The notes below the pieces were generated by a model, which was not told the origin of the DNA, did not search any database, and saw only the letters and a list, made by a program, of their open reading frames with translations. Position numbers and translations under genes: made by a program. 64,000 nt of DNA from Roseobacter sp. (GTDB lineage Bacteria > Pseudomonadota > Alphaproteobacteria > Rhodobacterales > Rhodobacteraceae), in the NCBI GenBank assembly GCA_015665415.1, contig JADFAE010000013.1:215066-279065 (forward strand). Reading direction: 5' to 3'. Below are positions 40,923-61,877 of this stretch, piece by piece. The number at the start of each line of letters is the position of its first letter. The first letter of the stretch is position 1.

Positions 40923-41002
40923 CGCTCTGTTTGGGGTGGCGGTTTTTGGGCCCAGCCGTTGCCTCTTGGGCGAACTGAACTGAAGGGTTGCAGATTCGCA
41001 GC

Positions 41003-41097
41003 AAGGGGCGTATATGCCAATTCAACAGCGGCGTGTTGAGCTCTGGTTCAAGACACCACCGGATTAGTTCAACGGGCCGCGCGCCCGTTTTTTTGTG
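41003..41097 (+). promoter_or_regulatory. Putative attenuator leader of rimP-nusA-infB operon
   Basis: SD aagggg; ORF 41014-41067 [17 protein letters not shown]; alternative helices; terminator AACGGGC-cgcgc-GCCCGTT TTTTT. Confidence 0.6.
41071..41094 (+). terminator. Intrinsic terminator upstream of rimP
   Basis: AACGGGC-CGCGC-GCCCGTT followed by TTTTT. Confidence 0.9.
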
Positions 41098-41146
41098 TCC
41101 TCAAAAGACGCAGAGTCCAAAGCCCAACCCGATTGTGGGAAGTCAA

Positions 41147-41737
41147 ATGACCAACGACCTGATTGCCAAAGCTGCGATTGACCGCCGCCTCGCTGAGCTT
41201 CTGATCCCGGTGATCGAAGACCTCGGCTATGAGCTGGTGCGCATTCGCCTGATGTCTGGCAAAGTCACCACGCTGCAGATCATGGCCGACAAGCCCGATG
41301 GCGGCATCGAAGTGGATGATTGCGCTGCAATCTCCAATGCCGTCAGCGCGACACTGGATGTTGAGGATCCGATTCTGGATACCTTTACGCTGGAAGTCTC
41401 CAGTCCTGGGATCGACCGGCCCCTGACCCGGCTCAAAGACTTTGACATGTTCGAAGGCTATGAGGCCAAACTCGAAACCGAGGAGCTGGTTGGCGGACGT
41501 CGCCGCTTTAAGGGCGAGCTGGCCGGCACCGAAGAAGATGAAGTTCTGATCAATATCGAGGATCAGGGCCAAACCGTTACCATCGGTCTGAAATTTGATT
41601 GGCTCTCGGATGCCAAGCTGGTTTTGACCGATGATCTGATCACGGAAATGCTGCGTCAGCGCAAAGCTGCCGGCACATTGAACGAAGATGCATTCGACGA
41701 GATCGAGGCCGAAGGGTCCGAAGAGGAGAACAAGTAA
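41147..41737 (+). CDS. rimP: Ribosome maturation factor RimP
   Basis: [22 protein letters not shown]...[18 protein letters not shown]; followed by nusA. Confidence 0.95.
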
Positions 41738-43362
41738 TGGCTATCACCTCTGCAAACCAGCTTGAGCTGTTGCAAACTGCTGAAGCTGTGGCGCGCGAAA
41801 AGATGATCGACCCCGGTCTGGTGGTTGACGCGATGGAAGAAAGCCTCGCCCGGGCGGCCAAGAGCCGCTACGGCAGCGAGATGGACATCCGCGTGTCGAT
41901 CGACCGCAAGACCGGCAAGGCGACCTTTACCCGCGTGCGTTCGGTTGTTGAGGATGAGGCGCTGGAAAACTACCAGGCCGAAATGACCGTCGAGCAGGCC
42001 AAGCAGTATATGGCCGACCCGCAGGTGGGTGACACGTTTGTCGAGGAAGTGCCTCCGGTGGAAATGGGCCGGATCGCGGCGCAATCGGCCAAGCAGGTCA
42101 TCCTGCAGCGGGTGCGCGAAGCAGAGCGGGATCGCCAGTTCGAAGAGTTCAAGGACCGCAACGGCACCATCATCAACGGTCTGGTCAAGCGCGAAGAATA
42201 TGGCAATGTCATCGTTGACGTGGGCGCCGGTGAAGGCATCCTGCGTCGCAACGAAAAGATCGGCCGCGAAAGCTATCGCCCCAATGATCGTATCCGTTGC
42301 TTCATCAAGGATGTGCGCCGCGAGCCCCGTGGCCCGCAGATCTTCCTGAGCCGGACCGCGCCTGAGTTCATGGCCGAGTTGTTCAAGATGGAAGTGCCGG
42401 AAATCTATGACGGCATCATCCAGATCAAGGCGGTGGCCCGGGATCCCGGTTCGCGTGCCAAGATTGCCGTGATCTCCAATGATGGCTCGATTGATCCTGT
42501 CGGGGCCTGTGTTGGTATGCGCGGCTCGCGCGTGCAGGCTGTGGTCAACGAGTTGCAGGGTGAAAAGATCGACATCATCCCATGGAACGAAGATCAGCCC
42601 ACTTTCCTGGTGAATGCTCTGCAGCCTGCAGAAGTCTCCAAGGTGGTTCTGGATGAAGAAGCCGGCAAGATCGAAGTTGTGGTTCCCGAAGAGCAGCTGA
42701 GCCTGGCGATTGGCCGTCGTGGTCAGAACGTACGTCTGGCCTCGCAGCTGACCGGTCTCGACATCGACATCATGACCGAAGAAGAAGAATCGGCGCGTCG
42801 CCAGAAGGAATTCGAAGCCCGCACCGGTCTGTTCATGGAAACTCTGGATCTGGACGAGTTCTTTGCTCAGCTTCTGGTCTCCGAAGGCTTCACCAACCTC
42901 GAAGAGGTGGCCTATGTGGAGCTGGACGAGCTTTTGGTCATCGACGGTGTTGATGAAGCCACGGCAGGTGAGCTGCAGGCCCGTGCCCGTGACCATCTGG
43001 AAGCCAAGGCCAAGGCGGCGATCGATGCGGCCCGCGCATTGGGGGCCGAGGACAGCCTGATCCAGTTCGACGGTCTGACCCCGCAGATGATCGAGGCGCT
43101 GGCCAAGGATGAGATCAAGTCGCTGGAAGATTTTGCGACCTGCGCCGATTGGGAGCTGGCCGGTGGCTGGACCTCTGACAACGGTGAGCGCGTCAAGGAT
43201 GACGGTATTCTCGAACCCTTTGGGATGAGCCTGGAAGAGGCGCAGACCTTGGTGATGACCGCACGGGTCATGCTGGGTTGGGTCGATCCTGATGATCTGA
43301 TCAGCGACGAAGACGCAGCAGAAGATGTCGCCGAAGAAGGCGAAGAGGACGCCGGAGCATAA
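41737..43362 (+). CDS. nusA: Transcription termination/antitermination factor NusA
   Basis: 541 aa; GACVGMRGSRVQAVVNELQGEKIDIIPW; S1/KH organisation. Confidence 0.97.
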   Translation: MAITSANQLELLQTAEAVAREKMIDPGLVVDAMEESLARAAKSRYGSEMDIRVSIDRKTGKATFTRVRSVVEDEALENYQAEMTVEQAKQYMADPQVGDTFVEEVPPVEMGRIAAQSAKQVILQRVREAERDRQFEEFKDRNGTIINGLVKREEYGNVIVDVGAGEGILRRNEKIGRESYRPNDRIRCFIKDVRREPRGPQIFLSRTAPEFMAELFKMEVPEIYDGIIQIKAVARDPGSRAKIAVISNDGSIDPVGACVGMRGSRVQAVVNELQGEKIDIIPWNEDQPTFLVNALQPAEVSKVVLDEEAGKIEVVVPEEQLSLAIGRRGQNVRLASQLTGLDIDIMTEEEESARRQKEFEARTGLFMETLDLDEFFAQLLVSEGFTNLEEVAYVELDELLVIDGVDEATAGELQARARDHLEAKAKAAIDAARALGAEDSLIQFDGLTPQMIEALAKDEIKSLEDFATCADWELAGGWTSDNGERVKDDGILEPFGMSLEEAQTLVMTARVMLGWVDPDDLISDEDAAEDVAEEGEEDAGA

Positions 43363-43392: not shown

Positions 43393-44013
43393 ATGGGTCG
43401 CGCAGGCGCCAGCAAATTTCGCGAAGACGGTGCGGAGCGCAAGTGCATCGCAACCGGTGAGGTTCAGCCCAAGCAGGGGCTGATCCGCTTTGTGATGGGG
43501 CCAGAGGCCCAGGTTGTGCCGGACGTCTTTGGCAAATTGCCAGGGCGCGGGGTCTATGTGACAGCCAGCCGTGAGGCGCTGGAGTTGGCGGTAAAGAAGA
43601 AACTCTTTGCCCGCGGCTTCAAGGTTCCGGTCACGCTGCCAGCGGATCTGGTGAATGAGGTGGAACGTCAGACGCTGCGCCGTCTGGTGGATTTGCTCAG
43701 CCTGGCCCGTAAATCGGGCGATGCGGTGGGTGGATATGAAAAGGTCAAGGATTGGCTAGGTAAAGAACACGCCACAGTTCTGATTCAGGCAAGCGATGGA
43801 TCAGGGCGCGGCAAATCGAAATTAAGTACCCCTCATCGGGGAAATTTCATCGGCTGCCTCACCGCAAATGAGCTGGGGATGGCATTTGGGCGTCAAACTG
43901 TGATACATGCGGCGCTCGCCTCTGGTGGACTCAGCAAACGTGTTGTAGACGAGGCGCAACGGTTGCAGGGTCTGCGCGAAATGGTGGGCGGCAGCGGCCG
44001 CACAGAAGGATAA
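43393..44013 (+). CDS. YlxR (DUF448) family RNA-binding protein with L7Ae-like C-terminus
   Basis: [49 protein letters not shown]; located between nusA and infB. Confidence 0.9.
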
Positions 44014-44021
44014 AGAGCTTT

Positions 44022-46529
44022 ATGAGCGATAGTGACGGCAAAAAGACCTTGGGTCTACGTGGCGGCGGTTCCCGGCCTGGGAACGTAAAACAGAGCTTTA
44101 GCCATGGGCGGACCAAGAATGTCGTGGTGGAAACCAAGCGCAAACGCGTTGTGGTCCCCAAGCCGGGTGGCAACAAGGGCGGCAATGCTGCTCCTGCGAC
44201 TGACGGATCGCGTCGGCCTGCCGGGATTACCGATGCAGAGATGAGCCGCCGCCTGAAGGCGTTGCAGGCTGCCAAGGCCCGTGAGGTCGAAGAAGCGGCC
44301 AAACGTGCGGCGGAAGAGAAAGCCCGCGAAGAGGATCGTGCCCGCCGTCGTGCCGAGGCCGAAACCAAAGAACGCGAGCAGCGCGAGGCCGAAGAAAAGG
44401 TTCGCCTGAAGGCCGAAGAAGAAGAGCGCAAGAAGCGTGAAGCTGCAGATGCGGCCAAACGTTCGGCAGAAGCTGCTGACAGCAAAAAGGCAGCTCCTGC
44501 TGCTGCGGGTGGCGCCGCCGCCGCGCCACGCGGTCCTGCCTCCAAGCCCGCGCCTGCACAGACGCCTCGCAAATCCGATCGCGAACGCGAAGAGCGTGGC
44601 CGCAGCAACAAGGGCCGTGCCGGCGATGACAACCGTCGTTCCGGTAAGCTGACTCTGGGCCAGGCCACCGGTGGTGCGGGCAACCGTCATCGCTCGATGG
44701 CCTCGATGAAGCGTAAACAAGAGCGCGCGCGTCAAAAGGCGATGGGCACTGTTGAGCGCGAAAAGGTCTTGCGTGAAGTGCAGCTGCCCGAGGCGATTGT
44801 TGTCTCCGAGCTGGCAAACCGGATGTCCGAACGTGTTGGTGCGGTTGTCAAATCGCTGATGAACATGGGCATGATGGTGACACAGAACCAGACCATCGAT
44901 GCCGATACCGCGGAATTGATCATCGAAGAGTTCGGCCACAAGGTGGTTCGGGTTTCCGATGCTGACGTGGAAGACGTGATCAACGTCGTGGAAGACAAGG
45001 CCGAAGACCTGAAGTCCCGTCCGCCGGTGATCACCATCATGGGCCACGTGGACCACGGTAAGACGTCGATTCTGGATGCCATCCGCAATGCGCGTGTTGT
45101 GGCAGGCGAGGCCGGCGGCATCACTCAGCACATCGGCGCCTATCAGGTGACCACCGAAAGCGGCACCGTGCTCAGCTTCCTGGATACGCCGGGCCACGCG
45201 GCCTTTACCTCGATGCGCTCGCGTGGGGCTCAGGTGACGGATATCGTGGTTCTGGTTGTGGCGGCGGATGATGCGGTCATGCCGCAGACCATCGAAGCCA
45301 TCGCCCACGCCAAGGCGGCCGAAGTTCCGATGATTGTTGCGATCAACAAATGCGACAAGCCTGCGGCTGATCCGATGAAAGTGCGCACCGATCTGTTGCA
45401 GCACGAAGTCATTGTGGAAGCGATGTCCGGTGAAGTGCAGGACGTTGAAGTTTCGGCACATACTGGCCAGGGTCTGGACGAGCTGCTGGAAGCCATTGCG
45501 CTGCAATCGGAAATTCTGGAACTCAAAGCCAACCCAGAGCGCGCTGCCCAGGGGGCTGTGATCGAAGCCCAGCTTGATGTTGGTCGCGGACCGGTTGCCA
45601 CTGTTCTGGTTCAGAACGGCACCCTGCGTCAGGGCGATATCTTTGTTGTTGGTGAGCAATACGGTAAGGTCCGTGCGCTGATCAACGACAAGGGCGACCG
45701 CGTTGAAGAAGCTGGTCCCTCGGTTCCGGTCGAGGTTCTGGGTCTCAACGGCACACCCGAAGCGGGCGATGTGCTGAACGTGACCGAGACCGAAGCGCAG
45801 GCGCGTGAAATCGCCGAATACCGCGCTCAGGCTGCCAAGGACAAACGCGCTGCTGCTGGTGCTGCCACCACGCTTGAGCAGCTGATGCAGAAGGCCAAAG
45901 ACGACGAAACCGTCTCTGAGCTGCCGATCCTGGTCAAAGCCGACGTGCAAGGCTCTGCTGAAGCCATCGTTCAGGCGATGGAAAAGATCGGCAACGACGA
46001 AGTCCGCGTGCGGGTGCTGCATTCCGGTGTGGGTGCCATCACCGAGACAGACATCGGCCTGGCCGAAGCCTCCGGTGCACCGGTCATGGGCTTTAACGTT
46101 CGTGCCAATACTTCGGCGCGCAACACTGCCAACCAGAAGGGCGTAGAGATCCGCTATTATTCGGTGATCTATGATCTGGTCGACGACGTGAAAAAGGCCG
46201 CTTCTGGTCTGCTCAGCGCCGAGATCAAGGAAAACTTCATTGGCTACGCCCAGATCAAGGACGTCTTCAAGGTGTCCAACGTTGGCAAGGTTGCCGGCTG
46301 TCTGGTCACCGAAGGTGTTGCACGCCGCTCGGCGGGTGTACGTCTGCTGCGCGACAACGTGGTGATCCACGAAGGCACGCTGAAGACCCTGAAGCGCTTC
46401 AAGGACGAAGTTCCCGAAGTCCAGTCCGGTCAGGAATGTGGTATGGCCTTTGAGAACTACGAAGATGTCCGCGCAGGCGATGTCATCGAGATCTTCGAGC
46501 GTCAGGAAGTCGAACGTTCGCTCGACTAA
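44022..46529 (+). CDS. infB: Translation initiation factor IF-2
   Basis: 835 aa; [30 protein letters not shown]. Confidence 0.98.
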
Positions 46530-46547
46530 GACACTGTGAAATATTTG

Positions 46548-46584
46548 AAAAAGCCCTGGCCTTTGCGCCGGGGCTTTTTGTTTT
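46548..46584 (+). terminator. Intrinsic terminator after infB
   Basis: AAAAAGCCCTGGC-ctttgc-GCCGGGGCTTTTT GTTTT. Confidence 0.92.
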
Positions 46585-61055: not shown

Positions 61056-61877
61056 TTATCGGCGCGCGTTCCAGCTGATGGAGACGTGGCGGCGGGTATA
61101 GAACTCGCCCATCAGTCCGATCATCACCAGCGCTACAGCGATCCATGCCGCATATTCCCAGCTGCTGTAATGTGGGTTGTAGTTGATGAAGACGTAGCCC
61201 CGCGCCTGATCGATGCAGTGAAACAGCGGATTCCAGTCAAACATCGCCAGCATGAAGCTAGGCAGGGTATTGGCTAGGAACATCTTGCCCGAGGCAATCA
61301 TGTTGGCGCGTTGATAAATGGTGGTCAAAATGCCGACAAATCCGGGTGCCCAGGGTTTGATCACCAGAAACACCAGACCAACAGCGGCCCCGGTGATCCA
61401 GGACAGCAGGACCATACCATAGGCCTGGATCGGTTGTTCGATCACCAGCGGCGTAAAAGCCACATGGTAGACGAACAGGATGAGAAACAGCGATACCGTC
61501 TGGATATAAAGCGACCCCAGCGCGGCCGAGAGGATCGCGATCATGGTGTTCATGGGCGCGTGTTGCATCATCGGGCTGGCAGGGCCTTCGGCACCAGCCA
61601 CAGCGCCCACGGTTTTGGTATGGGTCAGGAACAGAAAGATCCCGGACATCACGTAAAGCAGAAAATCACCGCGAATGGCTGAGCCCCTGAGCCCGAGCAC
61701 CGCAAACATCACATAAAAAAGGGCGACGAACATGACCGCCTGCATGATGTTCATGCCCAGGGCGATCAGGGCATTGTTGTGTTTGGAGCGAACACTGCGG
61801 ACAATAGAGTGGTAAACCACTTCGAATATCGAGATGGCACCGGACAACCACGTCTGCTGTTTGCGCAACTGAAACAT
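61056..61877 (-). CDS. ABC-2 type (polysaccharide export-like) permease
   Basis: 273 aa multi-TM; DWNPLFHCIDQARGYVFINY typical of KpsM/Wzm-like permeases. Confidence 0.82.
   Translation of the reverse strand: MFQLRKQQTWLSGAISIFEVVYHSIVRSVRSKHNNALIALGMNIMQAVMFVALFYVMFAVLGLRGSAIRGDFLLYVMSGIFLFLTHTKTVGAVAGAEGPASPMMQHAPMNTMIAILSAALGSLYIQTVSLFLILFVYHVAFTPLVIEQPIQAYGMVLLSWITGAAVGLVFLVIKPWAPGFVGILTTIYQRANMIASGKMFLANTLPSFMLAMFDWNPLFHCIDQARGYVFINYNPHYSSWEYAAWIAVALVMIGLMGEFYTRRHVSISWNARR

Follow-up and report, generated by a model that had tools for sequence, protein, structure and literature searches.

The window, by which we mean the whole 64,000-nucleotide stretch of DNA that was analysed, comes from a relative of Pseudophaeobacter and Phaeobacter, and its closest RimP proteins are 92–96% identical. 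Pfam confirmed rimP, nusA and infB, which an earlier note made from the sequence alone had already placed behind a putative leader, and additionally identified ylxR in the same operon. The conserved unit ahead of these genes is an RNA of about 75 nt with its own promoter, built from a near-invariant CAACAGCGGC start, a hairpin that we call P1, the motif CCACCGG and a terminator of the form CGGGC...GCCCG-U7. The features are collected in Table 1. Between leader and rimP the window has a spacer of 52 nt (41095-41146), which is much shorter in most genera; this spacer holds a AACCCGATTGTGG unit that occurs twice in some close relatives (e.g. L031, L034, L035). Behind infB, a terminator-like hairpin on the forward strand (46558-46580) possibly marks the end of the operon. 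Elsewhere in the window, positions 61161-61313 (+) strongly match the Rfam model of Cis2_sRNA (RF02645, 120.5 bits, E=2.4e-24), which is known as an sRNA of Ruegeria, and the match is antisense to an ORF (61056-61877, −) that by eye resembles an ABC transporter permease.

Table 1. Features of the rimP leader and of the operon behind it (positions in the window).
Feature	Position	Strand	Evidence and details
-35 element TTGCAG	40988..40993	+	CTTGC conserved in 148 aligned leaders, 1.3–1.9 bits per base
-10 element TATATG	41011..41016	+	TATAT conserved; relatives mostly have G or C as the sixth base
Predicted transcription start	41022..41024	+	predicted position, at the conserved CAACAG
Conserved 5' segment CAACAGCGGC	41023..41032	+	residues 2-10 invariant in A1 (67 distinct sequences)
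P1 hairpin (anti-antiterminator)	41030..41057	+	pairs 41030-41031/41056-41057, 41033-41034/41053-41054, 41036-41041/41046-41051
Alternative antiterminator helix	41028..41080	+	pairs 41028-41032/41076-41080, 41034-41041/41067-41074, 41042-41047/41058-41063
Intrinsic terminator AACGGGC-CGCGC-GCCCGTT + T tract	41071..41094	+	consensus scan and alignment; GGGC...GCCC rimP-leader signature
rimP	41147..41737	+	Pfam RimP_N 1.2e-24; first gene of the controlled operon, ATG 41147
nusA	41737..43362	+	Pfam NusA_N 2.5e-33, KH_5; proposed source of the feedback signal
ylxR	43393..44013	+	Pfam YlxR 1.4e-24
infB (IF2)	44022..46529	+	Pfam IF-2 5.8e-42

While the earlier note saw no strong promoter upstream, we found a conserved one, in which TTGCAG and TATATG are separated by 17 nt. 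Across 148 related leaders no stretch upstream of the leader is better conserved than this promoter, and the spacing between promoter and leader is kept as well. The first five bases of the -10 box carry 1.4–2.0 bits each and the middle of the spacer mostly less than 0.3 bits, and in 147 of the 148 leaders CAACAG follows 5–9 nt past the -10 box. The same order was seen in 80 rimP upstream regions sampled from named genomes, namely CTTGCA or a close variant, a variable spacer, a TATA-type -10 box and then the leader. A generic promoter scan missed the element because the last base of its -10 box is not T.

For the RNA itself we compared 67 distinct leaders (alignment A1, with 34 invariant columns) and, more broadly, 96 leaders (A2); the fit to the structure of a covariance model gives A2 some bias towards P1, and A1 had no such fit. 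RNAalifold on A1 predicts P1 together with the terminator. P1 is paired in 93.7% of the cells of A1, with two-sided changes in 8 of its 10 pairs, and in 89.3% of the cells of A2, where all 10 pairs show such changes and the observed values were reached by none of 500 shuffles. Sliding the P1 partner by one column in A2 lowers the pairing from 89% to about 50%, and on a DNA tree of rimP-nusA we count ten pair-keeping double changes on single branches, which together involve seven pairs. Covariation, for which the earlier note had suggested testing upstream of rimP, is present in P1. The 5' pairing that the note had drawn, UGUUGAG (41034-41040) with UUCAACA (41021-41027), uses strings that are indeed there, yet the covarying partner of 41036-41041 is 41046-41051; the UUCAACA pairing is not the conserved one because it would draw on bases that lie at the predicted start site or ahead of it. 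The apical loop of P1 reads UCCA[AC] in 47 of the 96 A2 leaders (e.g. L080, L136, L176) despite a varying stem, a hint at recognition by a protein or an RNA. A pairing of this loop (UCCAA) with the rimP Shine-Dalgarno region (UUGGA), attractive by eye, was dropped, since it is no better than in randomly re-paired genomes (p=0.99).

The terminator sits exactly where the earlier note had put it and was also called by the consensus scan. Its stem is paired in 98.5–99.8% of cells across the sets; the core is invariant in A1, and in A2 (98.5% paired) two pairs show two-sided changes. It has the features of the terminators of rimP-leaders, lying within 4–130 nt of rimP and consisting of CGGGC-CGCGC-GCCCG followed by T7.

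In the main lineages a second predicted fold competes with these two hairpins. In it, the 5' strand of P1 pairs with the 5' arm of the terminator, so that it is mutually exclusive with P1 plus terminator, and in the window it is the minimum free energy (MFE) structure of the whole leader (−28.7 kcal/mol, versus −23.0 kcal/mol for P1 plus terminator). The downstream pairing with AGUUCAACG (41066-41074), which was proposed earlier as a means to sequester the terminator 5' arm, is real and even longer than claimed, with 19 pairs that join 41028-41047 to 41058-41080. When the growing transcript is folded, P1 forms the MFE core at prefixes of 32 to 53 nt and is the top structure at about 35 to 53 nt; the long helix wins at 56 nt, before the 3' arm of the terminator exists. 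In the folding model the leader of the window hence has the anatomy of an anti-antiterminator (P1), an antiterminator and a terminator; because the antiterminator is the more stable state there, termination as the default would rest on folding kinetics.

The comparison of relatives gives the following picture of this antiterminator. Its outer helix is paired in 92.3% of the cells of A1, and 47 of 96 leaders, where about 5 are expected, pair their 5' part with the terminator arm more strongly than their shuffled versions do (p<0.05). The CGC of the terminator loop is invariant in A1 though it is unpaired in the terminator, which is expected if it pairs with GCG of the 5' segment in the antiterminator. 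Pair changes in A2 show no clear excess over shuffles, and the tree has only about four cases in which a double change within one branch preserves a pair; the GC core is nearly constant, which leaves no scope for covariation. For the most divergent genera the antiterminator is not predicted. On the sequence comparison, support for the antiterminator stays below that for P1. P1 and the terminator are family-wide, and the antiterminator is a property of the main lineages.

A covariance model built from A1 was searched against the Rhodobacteraceae genera and the rest of the class. It matches 274 of the 298 Rhodobacteraceae genera, or 250 of 263 when only genomes of good quality are counted, and outside the family it finds weak matches in a few genomes of the class. 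RimP is encoded directly downstream in all 74 strong-hit loci examined (L110-L141, L159-L200), a number that includes a few repeats of genomes already sampled. The rimP start codon follows less than 30 nt past the leader end in 79 of 88 loci, usually after 8–29 nt, where the distances are approximate, as the leader end was set at the GTG after the T tract and the start codons were picked by similarity. Second copies elsewhere in the genome were sought and discarded: in 14 of 15 genomes the rimP copy scores 65–99 bits, and all other matches are weak (≤27 bits) and none is near rimP. Among nine genomes without a model match in which rimP was located, three (L217-L219) keep a diverged promoter, the CAACAGC start, a P1-like hairpin and a GGGCC terminator, and most of the other six have a GC-rich terminator-like hairpin ahead of rimP. 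In two members of a diverged clade, L217 and L218, we noticed by eye that the 5' CAACAG could base-pair with a CUGUUG located at the terminator loop, possibly an alternative antitermination register; as a clade feature it was dropped, for it is absent from the other members. In other alphaproteobacterial families, a GGGC...GCCC hairpin with a T run lies ≤220 nt upstream of rimP in 18 of 28 loci, given as a raw count with no shuffled control.

Attenuators of this type are already known. For the rimP-leader, which they called the most ubiquitous attenuator, Naville and Gautheret (2010) reported an unusual terminator, GGGc...gCCC, and named NusA as the best candidate effector (PMC2965389). Our leader shares with it the GGGc...gCCC stem with U tract at 4–130 nt upstream of rimP-nusA-infB, and NusA feedback was proposed there too. 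In its general published form the rimP-leader lacks a larger conserved element and an antiterminator is not visible, and the form of Gammaproteobacteria that does have an antiterminator carries two tandem terminators (PMC2965389). The leader studied here differs from the general form in its conserved promoter, in the covariation of P1 and, as far as the main lineages are concerned, in its antiterminator. In B. subtilis, as Mondal et al. (2016) are summarised in PMC12288461, NusA regulates its own synthesis by stimulating termination in the 5' leader. There, as in our case, termination in the operon's own 5' leader would control entry into nusA; the likeness is one of terminator type, with the NusA dependence shown in B. 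subtilis and presumed here. In E. coli metY-rimP-nusA-infB, the terminators t1/t2 likewise stand ahead of rimP and the operon is subject to control by the NusA that it encodes, but the tRNA gene metY and several promoters precede rimP (PMC6511841), where we see a structured leader of about 75 nt.

We therefore regard it as probable that the element is a transcription-attenuation leader of rimP-nusA-ylxR-infB, of the rimP-leader kind and with its own sigma-70 type promoter, and that NusA is the most likely controller. That a putative attenuator stands ahead of this operon is well supported by sequence and comparison, which back the promoter, P1, the terminator, the tie to rimP and, for the main lineages, the competing fold; the start site, termination in vivo, the switch and NusA as its signal are inferred. 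RNA polymerase would start at about 41022-41024, and P1 would fold first and leave the terminator free, so that many transcripts would end after about 72 nt. If P1 is opened, or if the polymerase dwells near nt 56–60, the 5' segment could invade the terminator 5' arm; the terminator would then fail and rimP-nusA-infB would be transcribed. Abundant NusA would stimulate termination at the leader hairpin and thereby close a negative feedback loop. Such feedback is the most likely function of the leader by analogy, because of the published rimP-leader, B. subtilis and E. coli precedents.

The earlier note had explained the same features by translation. It proposed a leader peptide of 17 residues (ORF 41014-41067, behind an SD-like AAGGGG at 41003-41008), on which ribosomes would pause at a Pro-Pro-Asp-stop and block the terminator 5' arm. 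All these strings are present, and the ORF with its PPD-stop is found in the window and near relatives (L030, L031, L034-L036, L038), but only there. The proposed ATG (41014-41016) makes up the second half of the -10 box, and AAGGGG falls within the spacer between the two promoter elements; with transcription predicted to start at about 41022-41024, the ORF would not be transcribed intact. Moreover, the variation at the sixth -10 position is that of a promoter rather than that of a start codon. In 81 sequences, compared for the conserved short ORF and PP motif that this idea calls for, the ATG is absent from 26, the frame stops before the terminator in 28 and runs beyond it in 27, so that start codon, frame, peptide and PPD all fail to be conserved and the ORF is no more than chance. 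We consider a leader-peptide attenuator extremely improbable and, as judged from these sequences, a translated leader peptide has no role in the attenuator. What stands of the earlier interpretation is a premature-termination leader before rimP, kept across Rhodobacteraceae, with competing helices able to sequester the terminator 5' arm; the peptide, the pause and the ribosome-mediated control do not. The note's own caveat, that the terminator could just serve the preceding solute-binding-protein gene while rimP has a separate promoter further down, describes an arrangement that we find improbable. The terminator does lie about 150 nt after that gene and may end its transcript too, but a conserved promoter separates gene and hairpin, and a covarying structure precedes the terminator. 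In addition, the gap of 8–29 nt in most genera leaves no room there for a second promoter, so that rimP expression must pass the terminator, whether from the leader promoter or from further upstream.

Two further explanations keep the terminator and the promoter and differ in what the RNA does. The terminated RNA of about 72 nt could be a trans-acting small RNA, with or without attenuation of rimP. For this speak its own promoter, the conserved 5' end, the conserved CCACCGG and the strong terminator with seven T, as well as a precedent in the same family: UpsM, the 206-nt 5' leader sRNA of mraZ in Rhodobacter, has evidence for action in trans (PMC5089854). Like our leader it stands in Rhodobacteraceae with a strong terminator before a core operon, no separate gene start site and a possible alternative fold; it belongs to another operon and is a longer RNA, and the two are likened by these features and not by homology. 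Against this, the P1, antiterminator and terminator pairings explain most of the conserved segments, and the element is single-copy and always tied to rimP in the examined loci, unlike a typical free-standing sRNA, so that we deem a trans-acting role rather unlikely. Similarly doubtful to us is that the same two-state attenuator senses a signal other than NusA, such as RimP, a ribosomal assembly protein or temperature, with a ligand binding P1 or its loop. The apical loop conserved in about half of the 96 leaders would fit a ligand, and the E. coli operon is cold-induced (PMC6511841). Against it, the precedent for NusA is more direct, and from 37 to 5 °C the two states remain, with little change, about 6 kcal/mol apart, whereby we rejected cold sensing by simple energetics.

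In summary, the NusA-responsive attenuator that we favour is of the known rimP-leader kind, and what is new is its structured, family-wide form in Rhodobacteraceae. We found no earlier report of the leader in this family in the literature (open-licence papers). Rfam release 15 (4227 models) gives no match over the leader at gathering score; the best permissive same-strand match is SorX (E=1.3), whose 12.7 bits fall short of the gathering score of 46.6, and the leader hence defines an RNA family without a match in that release. One may tentatively speculate, as a possibility short of an even chance, that P1, the conserved 5' end and the apical loop form a dedicated receptor that recognises NusA, RimP or an assembly intermediate and so decides between terminator and antiterminator; the Rhodobacteraceae would then have a protein-sensing attenuator class of their own, added to a rimP-leader terminator that is itself more widespread. 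In the literature cited here, self-control of NusA via an operon leader is known from B. subtilis and E. coli. Compact and present in about 92% of the sampled Rhodobacteraceae genera, this leader combines a covarying hairpin with an explicit competing fold, and it makes it possible to test how a single operon balances transcription-elongation against translation-initiation factors.
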